Of a stretch of DNA of 64,000 nt, positions 6,149-25,494 are shown one piece after another. The DNA lies in the NCBI RefSeq assembly GCF_009295515.1, contig NZ_RQVV01000022.1, positions 62,001 through 126,000 on the forward strand. Reading direction: 5' to 3'. The notes under the pieces are model-generated. The model saw nothing but the letters and a program-made list of their open reading frames with translations, was not told where the DNA came from and made no database searches. The position numbers and the translations under genes are program-made. Source of the stretch: Erwinia endophytica. Its GTDB lineage: Bacteria > Pseudomonadota > Gammaproteobacteria > Enterobacterales > Enterobacteriaceae. Numbering within the stretch: the first letter of the stretch is position 1; each line of letters opens with the position of its first letter.

Positions 6149-6454
6149 TCAGGCAGAAGCAGTGTTATTGGCTTTTACCTGCTGACCAATTGAAATACCA
6201 TTATCAACCAGGGCCTCAATTCCCTGACTCATAAAGACCATCGTCATGACCGGGGACAGGCCAATTAATGCGCCAATACCCGCGCCTAAAGACTCACCCG
6301 CACCAGCATAGTCAGTATCAAAGCCAAAATTGGCCAGGACTTCATCGACAAGTTGGCCTACAGCCCAGCCAATCGCCGCACCAATTGGCGCAATTAAAAT
6401 GCCAAAAAGTCCGCCGCTGGTCTGCTGGATTTCATTATTTGTTAGCTCTCTCAT
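6149..6454 (-). CDS. Double-glycine leader peptide, class II microcin-like (peptide 1)
   Basis: Encodes 101 residues. The first 15, MRELTNNEIQQTSGG, have the form of a class II microcin leader (microcin V has MRTLTLNELDSVSGG), which a C39-peptidase ABC exporter cuts after GG. The predicted core of about 86 residues is hydrophobic and rich in Gly and Ala, with small-residue patterns such as GAAIGWAVG and GAGIGALIG that suit membrane-spanning helices, and it contains no cysteine. I chose the start at 6454 because it has an AAGGAAAG site just upstream; a longer in-frame extension would destroy the leader. It lies 73 bp downstream of a second such gene. No processing transporter or clear immunity gene is visible nearby. 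Confidence 0.75.
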   Translation of the reverse strand: MRELTNNEIQQTSGGLFGILIAPIGAAIGWAVGQLVDEVLANFGFDTDYAGAGESLGAGIGALIGLSPVMTMVFMSQGIEALVDNGISIGQQVKANNTASA

Positions 6455-6527: not shown

Positions 6528-6755
6528 TTACCAAAAAGCAAAAAAACCCACCACGTCGCAGAAAATCTGCGTCGCCAGAGTTAACGCTTTTGCACCTAAC
6601 TTCACACCCAGGGTAATGGTATCAGGTATAATATTCAACAACGTATTGACCGGCCCATCAATGATACCTGAAGCGATATCACCCACAATTTCGACGACAT
6701 CGCTGACATTCCCACCACTCACTGCATGAATTTCACGTTCGGTCAAATGACGCAT
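6528..6755 (-). CDS. Double-glycine leader peptide, class II microcin-like (peptide 2)
   Basis: Encodes 75 residues with the leader MRHLTEREIHAVSGG and a core of about 60 residues. The core starts acidic (VSDVVEIVGD) and becomes hydrophobic, ending in CDVVGFFAFW with one cysteine. A GGGAG site precedes the ATG, and a TATAAT-like box lies at 6788-6793 on the minus strand. This gene is transcribed first and peptide 1 second, so the pair may act together like two-peptide bacteriocins. An immunity role for one of them cannot be excluded, although both carry export leaders. Confidence 0.75.
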   Translation of the reverse strand: MRHLTEREIHAVSGGNVSDVVEIVGDIASGIIDGPVNTLLNIIPDTITLGVKLGAKALTLATQIFCDVVGFFAFW

Positions 6756-7276: not shown

Positions 7277-9499
7277 ATGAACCATTCACAAAAAAATAAA
7301 ACAATTTTTTGTAAATATACAACGCTCATGAGCGCTTTACTGCTCATGGGATATAGCAATCACACACTGGCTACCGTCACTGCTGATATGACTCAAACGC
7401 AGTCCCCGGTGATATCCAGCACCAGCGATGGCCAACAAGTTATCAATATTAACACGCCATCTGAAAGCGGACTTTCCCATAATATCTACACCAGTTTCGA
7501 CGTCAACAGCGAAGGGGTCGTACTGAATAACAGTCTGCAAACCACCCAAAGCGAGCTGGCAGGAGCGATACTGGCCAATCCCCAACTCACCGATAAAGCG
7601 GCCAGCATCATTCTCAATGAAGTGGTCAGCGGCAACGCCACAACATTGCAAGGCATGATTGAAGTTGCTGGTGAGAAAGCACAGGTGATTGTCGCCAACC
7701 CGGCAGGCATCACCTGTAGCGGCTGTGGTTTTATCAATACCGAACGTTCAACCCTAACCACCGGCACGCCTCAAATCACCGATGGCGTCCTCACCGGCTA
7801 TAACGTTGAAGGGGGAAAAGTGAAGATATCGGGCGATGGTATGGATGATAGCGCAACCAGCTATTCCGATATTATTGCCAACATGGTTACCGTCAGCGCT
7901 GCGCTAAAAGCGAATAACCTGCGTATTGTTACCGGAAAAAACAGTGTCGATAACGATACGCTGGCGGCAACTAAAACCGGGCAGGATACCTCCTGGTTCA
8001 GTTCGAAAGTCGCCGTGGATGTTACCGCTCTGGGTGGCATAACCGCAGGAAACATCATGATCGTCGCCACCGAAGATGGATTTGGCGTTAATAATGCAGG
8101 CAGTATCAGATCATCAGTAGACAATATCAGCATCACTGGTGCGGGCTATCTTAAAAACTCCGGCGAGATCAGTACCACAAACGCGCTGATAGCCGACATG
8201 ACAGGAACAGTGACTAATTCCGGCATCCTGACCAGCGGTACCGCGATGAACCTGAATAGCGAAGGCAACACCCTGAAGAACAGTGGCGAAATCAATGCGG
8301 GTACGACATTGACCATTAACAGCGGAAAACTGGCCAATAATGGCGGCATCTACAGCGCAGGCGATATGGTGCTGGATACCGGTGAAGCCGATCTCGAGAA
8401 CGCGGTGAGTCTTTTCGCGTCTGAAATCGTTAGCCAGGGTGGCCTGAGTATTAACAGTGCCAATCTCTATAATATCAATGGGATGATAACCGCCCAGGGC
8501 GACATAGCCATCACCACCCAGAATATCAATAACCAAAATGGCAAGATCCTCAGTTTCGGCGGCAATATGAACATCGACGCTGATTATCTGGGCAATTATG
8601 CGGGGGGACTGATGGCCGACCAGGACATGGTGTTAAACATCGACAATATTGTCATGAACTCCAGCGGCATCACGGTCGGTAACGATTTAACGATCAATGC
8701 CAGTCAGTTAGACAACCGCATGGGCGGCATACAAGTGGGCGGCAAAGCGACTATCGTAGCCAGTGAAAGTTATAAAAACAGTTCAGGTGTGTTAGTGGCA
8801 AATGAAGCCGATATAACCACGAAACAATTGAATAACTATGCCGGTCTCATCGTTACCAGCGGAGATTTAACCATCAACGCTGATTCGATCGATAACCGAT
8901 ACCAGTCGCTGTTCAGCCCTACTTTTGGGATCTGGATTGATGAGATAGGTACTGACGGCGGTATTATCAGCGGCGGCAACACCACCATCACCGCCACGAC
9001 ACTCAACAACAAGCAAAGCCGGATAATCAGTACCGGCGACCTGACACTGATTACAGAAGATATCGATAATGCGAGCGGCTTAATCTCGTCTGAATCACAG
9101 ACGGAAATAACCGCTAATGATCTCAATAATCGTTATGGCAACATTAAAACCGGCACCAATCTCATTCTGAATACTGCGGAGATCTCCGGAACCTCAGGCA
9201 ATATGGAAGCAGGAGACGATCTTGAACTGAACGTCAGCAAGGCTTTCTCAAACTACCACACCATCACCGCAGGCAATAATATCACCCTGAATATCGATGG
9301 TAATTTTATCAATATGGCGAGCGTAAAAGCAGGCAATAACCTTGAGATAAACGCCAACAGTCTGGTGAATGGCCTCTTCGATACCCTCTCTGCCGGACAA
9401 ACGCTGACCTTGAATACGCAGGGAATGATCGTGAACCTGGGAACACTGAGAGGAACGGAAATTATCAAGGATGACAGCCAAAGCTATTTCGGTTTTTAA
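7277..9499 (+). CDS. Two-partner secretion adhesin, filamentous haemagglutinin type, short
   Basis: A protein of 740 residues. It has a long signal peptide (about residues 1-33), then a TPS domain of about 220 residues with the hallmark NPAGITCSGCGFINTERSTL, followed by haemagglutinin repeats of about 20 residues (patterns like LTINADSIDNR and ITANDLNNR) that build a beta-helix to the end. Family members are usually well over 1000 residues and often carry a C-terminal toxin (CdiA type). This one stops after the repeats, with no toxin domain, no immunity gene and no TpsB transporter beside it. It is either a complete small adhesin served by a transporter elsewhere or a truncated gene. Confidence 0.8.
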   Translation: MNHSQKNKTIFCKYTTLMSALLLMGYSNHTLATVTADMTQTQSPVISSTSDGQQVININTPSESGLSHNIYTSFDVNSEGVVLNNSLQTTQSELAGAILANPQLTDKAASIILNEVVSGNATTLQGMIEVAGEKAQVIVANPAGITCSGCGFINTERSTLTTGTPQITDGVLTGYNVEGGKVKISGDGMDDSATSYSDIIANMVTVSAALKANNLRIVTGKNSVDNDTLAATKTGQDTSWFSSKVAVDVTALGGITAGNIMIVATEDGFGVNNAGSIRSSVDNISITGAGYLKNSGEISTTNALIADMTGTVTNSGILTSGTAMNLNSEGNTLKNSGEINAGTTLTINSGKLANNGGIYSAGDMVLDTGEADLENAVSLFASEIVSQGGLSINSANLYNINGMITAQGDIAITTQNINNQNGKILSFGGNMNIDADYLGNYAGGLMADQDMVLNIDNIVMNSSGITVGNDLTINASQLDNRMGGIQVGGKATIVASESYKNSSGVLVANEADITTKQLNNYAGLIVTSGDLTINADSIDNRYQSLFSPTFGIWIDEIGTDGGIISGGNTTITATTLNNKQSRIISTGDLTLITEDIDNASGLISSESQTEITANDLNNRYGNIKTGTNLILNTAEISGTSGNMEAGDDLELNVSKAFSNYHTITAGNNITLNIDGNFINMASVKAGNNLEINANSLVNGLFDTLSAGQTLTLNTQGMIVNLGTLRGTEIIKDDSQSYFGF

Positions 9500-23492: not shown

Positions 23493-24095
23493 ATGAGTGT
23501 ATTCGCGCTTGGTATGATTGTTTTCGCGTATCTGTGCGGCTCTATTTCCAGCGCGATTCTGGTATGCCGACTACTCAGATTACCCGATCCCCGACAGAAT
23601 GGTTCTGGCAATCCCGGAGCCACTAATGTGTTGCGTATCGGGGGGAAAATCCCGGCTTTTGCCGTGCTAATTTTTGATATTCTCAAAGGTATGTTGCCAG
23701 TATGGCTGGCTTATCATTATGGCCTCAGCCCGCTTTATCTTGGACTAACCGCTATTGCGGCCTGTCTGGGGCACATTTATCCGGTATTTTTCCACTTTAA
23801 AGGCGGCAAAGGCGTGGCGACGGCATTTGGCGCTATCGCCCCCATAGGCTGGGATTTGGCCGGGGTGATGAGCGGCACCTGGCTGCTGACCGTACTGCTG
23901 AGTGGTTACTCGTCTTTAGGTGCCATTATCAGTGCGCTGATTGCGCCGTTTTACGTGTGGTGGTTCAAGCCCCAGTTCACTTTTCCGGTCGCTATGCTGT
24001 CATGCCTGGTCCTGCTGCGTCATCACGACAATATTCTGCGCCTGTGGCGCGGGCATGAATCTAAGATCTGGAAAAAGAAAAAACCGCCGCAATAG
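23493..24095 (+). CDS. plsY: Glycerol-3-phosphate acyltransferase PlsY (YgiH)
   Basis: A protein of 200 residues with about five membrane helices. It transfers acyl groups from acyl phosphate to glycerol 3-phosphate. The three conserved loops are visible: [13 protein letters not shown], then [12 protein letters not shown] (near 37-48) and [12 protein letters not shown] (near 103-114). It ends with a basic tail ([11 protein letters not shown]). The start at 23493 matches the family. Confidence 0.94.
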
Positions 24096-24238
24096 AACAA
24101 AAGAAACTATTTCCGTCTGCGACTATTCAAAAAAAAACATTAGAATATAAAGAATTTCTTGATATTCTATCTGTGCCATACATGGCATACAATTTTCAAA
24201 AATATTATTATGTTATTACTAAATAAGGAGATTAAGTG

Positions 24239-24412
24239 ATGAAAGTATTATCGCAGCAAGAAATACAGCAGGTAAGCGGAGCCGGTGTTATTGAGGATAC
24301 CTTAAGTGACATCGGTACCTCACTCGGTTCGCTCATTGGTAGCAGCATTGAAAGTGTGATTGCCAATATCCCGCTGGTCGGTAGTTGGTTAAATAGCATG
24401 TTAGGTAACTAA
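24239..24412 (+). CDS. Small double-glycine-type leader peptide, class II microcin-like (peptide 3)
   Basis: An open frame of 57 codons behind an AAGGAG site nine bases from the ATG. The leader MKVLSQQEIQQVSGA has the same 15-residue layout as the peptides at 6.1-6.8 kb: Leu4, Glu8, Ile9, Ser13 and Gly14 are shared, and EIQQ is identical to peptide 1. The predicted core of 42 residues (GVIEDTLSDIG to NSMLGN) is an amphipathic, serine/glycine-rich helix with an IPLVGSWL segment and no cysteine. Cleavage after GA, as in microcins H47 and L, is possible. The flanks are A/T-rich and the gene stands alone between housekeeping genes. Confidence 0.7.
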   Translation: MKVLSQQEIQQVSGAGVIEDTLSDIGTSLGSLIGSSIESVIANIPLVGSWLNSMLGN

Positions 24413-24424
24413 CTATCACGTTTA

Positions 24425-24464
24425 ACGCCATTATGTACCATCATTAATATATGCATAATGGCGT
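24425..24464. terminator. Inverted repeat between peptide 3 and tsaD
   Basis: An 11-bp perfect inverted repeat (ACGCCATTATG and CATAATGGCGT) around an 18-base A/T-rich loop. It lies between convergent genes and lacks a clear T tail, so it is a possible terminator or insertion scar. Confidence 0.45.
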
Positions 24465-24471
24465 GTGGGTC

Positions 24472-25494
24472 TTAGTCACTTTGCAAGGGTGACAACTCAG
24501 ACAGTGGCCAGCGAGGCCGCACCGTTACGCTCAGATCTCCACGAGTTCCCGCCTTCAAACGCACCATCCCGGCATAAGCAATCATCGCGCCATTGTCAGT
24601 GCAAAATTCAGGACGGGCATAGAAAACGTCTCCCCCTCGCGTCTTCATTATATCCGCCATCTTAGCGCGTAGCGTGCGGTTAGCACTGACGCCGCCGGCA
24701 ATCACCAGACGTTTAAAACCAGTTTGTTCCAGCGCCCGCTTACATTTGATAGCCAGGGTATCCACCACCGCGTCCTCAAATGCCCGGGCGATATCCGCGC
24801 GGGTTTGCTCGTCATCATTATTTTCACGAATGGTATTGGCCGCGAAAGTCTTCAGCCCGGAGAAACTGAAGTCCAGTCCTGGACGGTCGGTCATGGGGCG
24901 TGGAAAAACAAAACGTCCTTCCTCCCCCCGCTGGGCCATTTTCGACAACATCGGACCGCCGGGATAATCCAGGCCAAGCAGCTTGGCCGTTTTATCAAAA
25001 GCCTCACCCGCCGCATCGTCAACCGATTCGCCGAGCAGAATATATTCGCCAATACCGGTCACACTAATCAGTTGAGTATGACCACCAGAGACCAACAGCG
25101 CGACAAACGGAAACGCGGGCGGATTATCTTCCAGCATCGGTGCCAGCAGATGCCCCTCCATGTGATGAACCGGGATCGCCGGGACATCCCAGGCGAAAGC
25201 CAGTGAACGGCCAATGGTGGCGCCGACCAGCAACGCCCCTACCAGGCCCGGTCCCGCCGTCCAGGCTACAGCGTCAATGTCCTGTGCCTTCAGGCCCGCT
25301 TCTTGCAACGCCGCCTGGATTAACGGCACCGTTTTACGCACGTGATCACGTGAAGCCAGTTCCGGCACCACACCGCCATAATCGGCATGCAGTTTGACCT
25401 GACTGTAAAGTTGGTTGGCCAGTAAGCCAGCCGCATCGTCGTAAATCGCGATACCGGTTTCATCACAGGACGTTTCTATTCCGAGCACTCGCAT
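24472..25494 (-). CDS. tsaD: tRNA N6-adenosine threonylcarbamoyltransferase
   Basis: A protein of 340 residues matching E. coli TsaD. It transfers the threonylcarbamoyl group to A37 of ANN-decoding tRNAs with TsaB and TsaE. The Fe-binding HMEGH (near 111-115) and ASKHA-fold blocks ([43 protein letters not shown]) are all present. It is divergent from rpsU, as in E. coli. Confidence 0.97.

Follow-up and report, generated by a model that had tools for sequence, protein, structure and literature searches.

The question raised by this locus is what a short open reading frame lying between plsY and tsaD encodes, and how its product could be secreted. The window, by which we mean the whole 64,000-nucleotide stretch analysed here, corresponds to positions 62001-126000 of contig C15 of the Erwinia endophytica genome (G000; 4.23 Mb in 61 contigs). 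A first-pass annotation of this DNA had described a 57-codon frame with a ribosome-binding site, placed in a core gene block with A/T-rich flanks, and the description held: the frame starts with ATG and runs for 57 codons plus a stop, both neighbours scored above the cut-offs of the PlsY and TsaD models, and the GC content of the plsY-tsaD interval is 36%. An alternative start, GTG at 24236, is present one codon upstream of the ATG. The features of the locus are as follows.

23493-24095, plus strand: plsY, the upstream neighbour (TIGR00023, 265.9 bits, cut-off 137.2)
24225-24230, plus strand: ribosome-binding site AAGGAG, 8 nt 5' of the ATG at 24239
24239-24412, plus strand: gene of the 57-residue peptide (leader 24239-24283, core 24284-24409, stop 24410-24412)
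24425-24464, no strand assigned: inverted repeat (13 bp) located where the peptide gene and tsaD converge, without a T run and so not scored as a terminator
24472-25494, minus strand: tsaD, the convergent downstream neighbour (TIGR03723, 447.1 bits, cut-off 296.1)

The leader of the window peptide is MKVLSQQEIQQVSGA, 15 residues in length. Our best reading is that of an orphan peptide, class II microcin/Cdz-like and exported in trans, in a one-unit variant that is either still working or decaying. That the frame is the gene of a small secreted glycine-zipper peptide of this type in a functional, trans-exported one-unit form was given a probability of about 0.55. If the gene is expressed, as we infer, the leader, which is of the double-glycine type, would be recognised by an ABC exporter of the peptidase-C39 type whose gene lies elsewhere, in either a TolC-like/HlyD/C39 operon on contig C7 or an HlyD/C39 pair on contig C30. 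Cleavage is predicted after Gly14-Ala15, and the acidic 42-residue core with its glycine zipper (mass about 4.2 kDa, net charge about -4) would be released or kept at the cell surface and would act on the membranes of competitors. The peptide is an orphan, with neither an exporter nor an obvious immunity gene alongside, and it descends from a two-unit peptide of 95-99 residues, as found in the same interval of six other Erwinia, having lost one unit in frame.

The plsY-tsaD interval was read in 37 Erwinia genomes, G000 included, and a peptide of the same family was found in seven of them. It has 57 residues in G000 and 95-99 residues in six of the 36 other genomes, namely G002, G010 (Erwinia mallotivora BT-MARDI), G013, G024 (Erwinia psidii IBSBF 435), G027 and G035. 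The interval of G019 holds a leader peptide with a core unrelated to the others at this locus and, farther downstream, an apparent remnant of the old C-terminus; a possible explanation is that the core was exchanged behind a retained leader. The G019 core that follows this same-type leader (L032) is repetitive. Broken remnants of the peptide gene were seen in G025 and G026, the latter adjoining an IS-like insertion, and the interval of the other 27 genomes showed no recognisable leader peptide. On a tree of plsY and tsaD, the presence of the peptide or its remnant requires at least five changes, and the gene has therefore been repeatedly gained or lost at this locus. The first-pass annotation would have been abandoned had the frame lacked conservation in relatives; this danger was averted across the genus, but not in G003, the nearest genome on the tree, where the interval holds unrelated sequence without the frame.

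To the E. mallotivora homologue, 41 of the 57 residues of the window peptide are identical once a 39-residue gap is allowed, and relative to this homologue the 39 residues are absent in frame from the window copy. In the longer homologues there are two glycine-zipper units that resemble each other (in the five tested, shuffles were as good in 0, 0, 2, 9 and 1 of 1000), and unit 2 gave the best fit to the window core in all five. Since the core fits unit 2 and the 39-residue gap is in frame, the window peptide is a one-unit form. It retains the leader and one whole unit; the start, ribosome site and stop are intact, and a glycine zipper GxxxGxxxG is formed by G26-G30-G34 (GxxxG motifs from residues 26 and 30). 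The earlier view of the peptide as a family member was upheld, while its shortening to one unit and the decay of the locus in relatives had gone unnoticed. Silent changes dominate between the window and E. mallotivora copies (pS 0.744, pN 0.218), and on the window branch 10.75 of 22 singleton changes are protein-altering, below the neutral proportion (p 0.0037). This bias is an argument for constraint in the past and perhaps still today, although it may be older than the deletion.

The following features precede the gene.

24163-24168, plus strand: candidate -10 element TATTCT with a weak -35, picked by eye; the hairpin begins 3 nt after it
24172-24189, plus strand: upstream hairpin, 7 bp including one G-U, 4-nt loop, -8.0 kcal/mol
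24174-24187, plus strand: core palindrome TGCCATACATGGCA, inside the hairpin
24182-24211, plus strand: alternative promoter-like site ATGGCA-18-TATTAT (one found against a shuffle mean of 1.7)

The TATTCT element is a candidate that, if used, puts the hairpin at the transcript start; use of the ATGGCA-18-TATTAT site would leave the hairpin untranscribed. Both promoter scans favoured TATTAT over the upstream TATTCT, and the folding z of the window gene was only -1.37 (nine of 100 shuffles as low), so that a 5'-terminal hairpin is ambiguous for the window gene itself. An Rfam scan of 24000-24600 returned nothing up to E 1.

Among the alternatives, the one that survives best is decay of the window copy: an in-frame deletion between the repeat units would have occurred by luck and left a shortened peptide without activity. 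We consider it rather unlikely, though it deserves real weight. It is in keeping with the broken locus in G025 and G026, the C-terminal remnant in G019, the length of 95-99 residues in all six homologues of the family at this locus and the ambiguous promoter, and a random deletion keeps the frame one third of the time. Against it stand the intact start, ribosome site, leader, whole unit and stop, and the dominance of silent changes on the window branch, even if these perhaps predate the deletion. A functional one-unit peptide is preferred.

The leader had earlier been likened to those of two other peptides in the window.

6149-6454, minus strand: 101-residue leader peptide of the pair, leader MRELTNNEIQQTSGG
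6528-6755, minus strand: 75-residue leader peptide of the pair, leader MRHLTEREIHAVSGG

This likeness was borne out in full: the three leaders have a common length of 15 residues and agree at L4, E8, I9, S13 and G14, the agreement in length being one of leaders only, as the peptides have 57, 101 and 75 residues overall. A strict scan for leader and ribosome site gave three matches in the window, exactly the 24239 frame and the 6.1-6.8 kb pair, against a total of 0 in 100 first-order-Markov random sequences of 64 kb. With a loose leader pattern, three were found in the window against a random mean of 0.16 (maximum 2). The 101-residue member shares 42% identity with the C19:29481 peptide of G000 and 64% with that of G027. 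Relatives of the 75-residue member were found in G002 and G035 (52%) and in G027 (41% over 59 residues), about 17-18 kb from plsY as in the window; the adjacent pair recurs in G027, and the 75-residue member in G002 and G035. A 740-residue TPS-domain protein of filamentous-haemagglutinin type (7277-9499, plus strand) adjoins the pair.

A leader profile was built from 25 leaders, and the window leader, itself one of its rows, matched it at E 6.6e-17. The profile matched 11 times in G000, the most in any genome; nine of these matches are convincing (E up to 2.9e-4) and two are doubtful, C53:83392 being a 26-residue frame and C58:143677 being weak (E 0.05). The leader family is therefore dispersed on the chromosome, as had been proposed. 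Other solitary copies in G000 lie between the core genes ampE and aroP (C53) and between cpdB and the gene of an fklB-type isomerase (C19). The ampE-aroP peptide (L064, 6479-6778, minus strand) has a long run of serines, with glycines, at its C-terminus and in this resembles the Ser/Gly tails that PMC13174018 links to siderophore-modified class IIb microcins. Matches at E up to 0.1 occur in 26 of the 37 Erwinia genomes. Among 247 Enterobacterales genomes drawn more widely, G000 included, only three others matched at E up to 1e-6, and a pattern scan of named genomes revealed relatives also in Pluralibacter, Limnobaculum and Pragia. The MccV model PF17508 gave 14.5 bits with the window peptide, below the cut-off of 27 and so no match by this model; a search for the MccV family in 394 Enterobacterales genomes gave six weak matches, none above the cut-off. 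None of the NCBIfam models fits the window peptide or two of its homologues.

The first-pass annotation had further suggested that the whole family is exported by one transporter, and it would have fallen if no further copies or exporter existed. Copies are plentiful, as the 11 profile matches attest, and G000 encodes two peptidase-C39 ABC proteins, on contigs C7 and C30, the window being on C15. The C7 exporter adjoins HlyD-type and TolC-like proteins, and the C30 exporter adjoins an HlyD-type protein and a 118-residue leader peptide; by eye, the Cys, His and Asp positions appear intact in both. The C7 exporter is separated from the peptide pair C7:63963-64370 by a chaperone-usher operon and the gene of a LuxR-type regulator. 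This stretch (L060 8977-18983, G000:C7) presents TolC-like/HlyD/C39 genes, the LuxR-type regulator gene and the fimbrial operon, with leader peptides past the fimbrial genes; fimbria genes near Cdz-like clusters are remarked on in PMC5380434.

Relatives of the C7 exporter at 61% identity or more were found in 15 of the 37 Erwinia genomes. At least three peptides, counting those beside exporters, were present in 13 of the 15 genomes with a C7-type exporter and in four of the 22 without (Fisher p 5e-5), and this exporter was present in seven of the eight genomes with a plsY-tsaD leader peptide and in eight of the 29 others (p 0.0038). Under tree control, all four informative pairs pointed in the same direction (p 0.125). 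Genus-wide, 90 strong leader matches (E up to 0.001) were obtained. A C39 gene was found at 20 kb or less from 14 of them, and 76 were farther than that from the C39 genes compared, or on a different contig; these 76 include matches on contigs that lack a C39 gene, and draft contigs may conceal some linkage. Export of all the peptides by one transporter is plausible, and shared export of co-occurring microcins has a precedent (PMC9746304). Since there are two exporters and the tree-controlled pairs reach only p 0.125, exporter sharing is suggested rather than established: the earlier claim was right as to the existence of C39 exporters.

Leaders of the double-glycine type are found on pheromones as well, and glycine zippers are drivers of assembly. 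The peptide could accordingly be a secreted signal or a surface-structure peptide rather than an antibacterial one, which we regard as improbable. The plsY-tsaD interval of the window contains no immunity-gene candidate, its sole other sizeable frame being one of 55 residues antisense over the peptide; the many similar peptides per genome are each solitary, and Cdz proteins are described as aggregating on the producer surface (PMC5380434), all of which would suit such a role. However, the leader and zipper match the criteria described for microcins and Cdz-like proteins, and the cores are strongly variable between copies, a pattern more in line with bacteriocins than with a signal. A further alternative, strongly disfavoured and very improbable, is that the frame arose by chance, or that its product is a small protein which is not secreted and whose start only resembles a leader. 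In spite of its shortness, its A/T-rich flanks and the want of a family model, the strict leader was never met in the random sequences and homologues reach E 5.6e-10 in other genomes, six lying within the plsY-tsaD interval. The secreted microcin/Cdz-like peptide is retained as the preferred reading.

A hairpin precedes many genes of this peptide class. It was noticed in a first set of upstream regions, and a second set was fetched afterwards, with the folding-energy stretch and the statistic identical in both; the sets were picked by leader pattern and ribosome site, and some profile matches were missed. The mean folding z was -1.09 in set 1 (56 genes), -1.28 in set 2 (38 genes) and -0.31 in the controls (61 genes). 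Removal of N-containing, short-upstream and near-duplicate sequences reduced the 94 regions to 90. A perfect hairpin, by a definition set after both sets had been seen (stem of at least 5, loop of 3-8, at least two G/C in a stem arm), was present at -75 to -20 in 37 of the 90 peptide genes, against 8.4 in shuffles (sd 2.4, maximum 16, 100 shuffles), and in 19 of 35 in set 2 alone, against 3.3. A/T-rich control genes gave 8 of 48 against 4.9, and control genes overall showed a mild excess (33 of 170 against 23.2, sd 3.8).

Promoters were then scored blind to the hairpins, with weights approximating the sigma-70 consensus. At a score of at least 5.5, the hairpin started 4-8 nt past the -10 in 17 of 57 peptides (shuffle mean 1.0, maximum 5) and, with the same anchoring, in one of 27 control genes (Fisher p 0.0043). 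At a score of at least 6.0, an anchored hairpin was found in 14 of 30 peptides (shuffle mean 0.4). The starts cluster 6-7 nt past the -10, where transcription usually begins. The hairpins are fixed in position and their stems are variable in sequence. As the peptides are mutually related, these numbers overstate independence; the stems nonetheless differ in sequence. A conserved DNA operator was considered for the palindrome and rejected, the palindromes agreeing in position and not in sequence. Outside Erwinia, a hairpin was present at -75 to -20 in four of 13 leader peptides (11 loci), and only one, from Pluralibacter gergoviae, started 6 nt after the best -10, so the hairpin does not clearly extend beyond Erwinia. 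Two adjacent leader peptides of P. gergoviae (L132, 5687 and 6001) each have an upstream hairpin. A 5'-terminal stem-loop impedes RppH and RNase E (PMC3997798), and we infer that the hairpins could prolong mRNA life.

A broader and more tentative picture, which we hold to be possible but on balance doubtful, is that of a dispersed Erwinia arsenal: many single immunity-less peptides between core genes would be served in trans by a few C39 exporters, each made from a promoter of its own whose transcript opens with a hairpin kept in position but not in sequence. The unlinked genes would then share a post-transcriptional design, most simply a long-lived mRNA, and would evolve as glycine-zipper units are gained, lost and exchanged. 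The hunt for microcins and Cdz-like systems often begins near exporters or immunity genes, and with 76 of the 90 strong leader matches not near an exporter, neighbourhood-based searches would miss much of this set. If export is in trans and dedicated immunity is lacking, the questions become how producers survive and whether the peptides act as a mixture. A 5'-terminal hairpin common to unlinked peptide genes would, if true, be a simple and transferable expression feature and could aid the discovery of such genes.

The kind of peptide is known. Class II microcins are established in Enterobacterales; further candidates have been predicted with cinful in Enterobacterales and Erwiniaceae, Erwinia included, and Serratia marcescens is reported to have several microcins per genome and microcins at separate locations (PMC9746304, PMC13174018, PMC13101503). 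Erwinia sp. is named among the carriers of Cdz-like clusters (PMC5380434). In the open-access literature, leaving aside the candidate tables of earlier surveys, no orphan, immunity-less, unit-built set and no shared 5' hairpin was found. The window peptide resembles class II microcins such as MccV and MccL in its small core and in its leader, which ends in GA (GG or GA in microcins) and for which recognition by an exporter is predicted. It also resembles them in the C39 exporter and membrane fusion protein encoded in the same genome, here as two ABC/HlyD-type sets, one of them also with a TolC-like protein. Unlike them, it stands alone between core genes, with no exporter next to it and no obvious immunity gene, a neighbour that is usual though perhaps not universal; it is also built of repeat units and scores below the MccV model cut-off.

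With the Cdz system (Caulobacter CdzC/CdzD, PMC5380434), the peptide shares a leader ending in G[G/A/S], a GxxxGxxxG zipper and, by prediction, type I export. The criteria for Cdz-like proteins given there are such a leader, one or two glycine zippers, 60-151 residues and a location within about 10 kb of secretion genes. The window peptide has the leader end (GA) and the zipper (residues 26 and 30); at 57 residues it is shorter than the stated range, within which its 95-99-residue homologues at the locus fall, and it has no type I secretion genes closer than about 10 kb, the C39 genes being on C7 and C30 and the window on C15. As for the hairpin, it resembles the ompA-type 5' stem-loops that stabilise mRNA (PMC3997798) in its position at, or close to, the predicted transcript start. 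Unlike these, a hairpin of variable sequence recurs here over many unlinked genes of one peptide class, with a putative role in mRNA stability.
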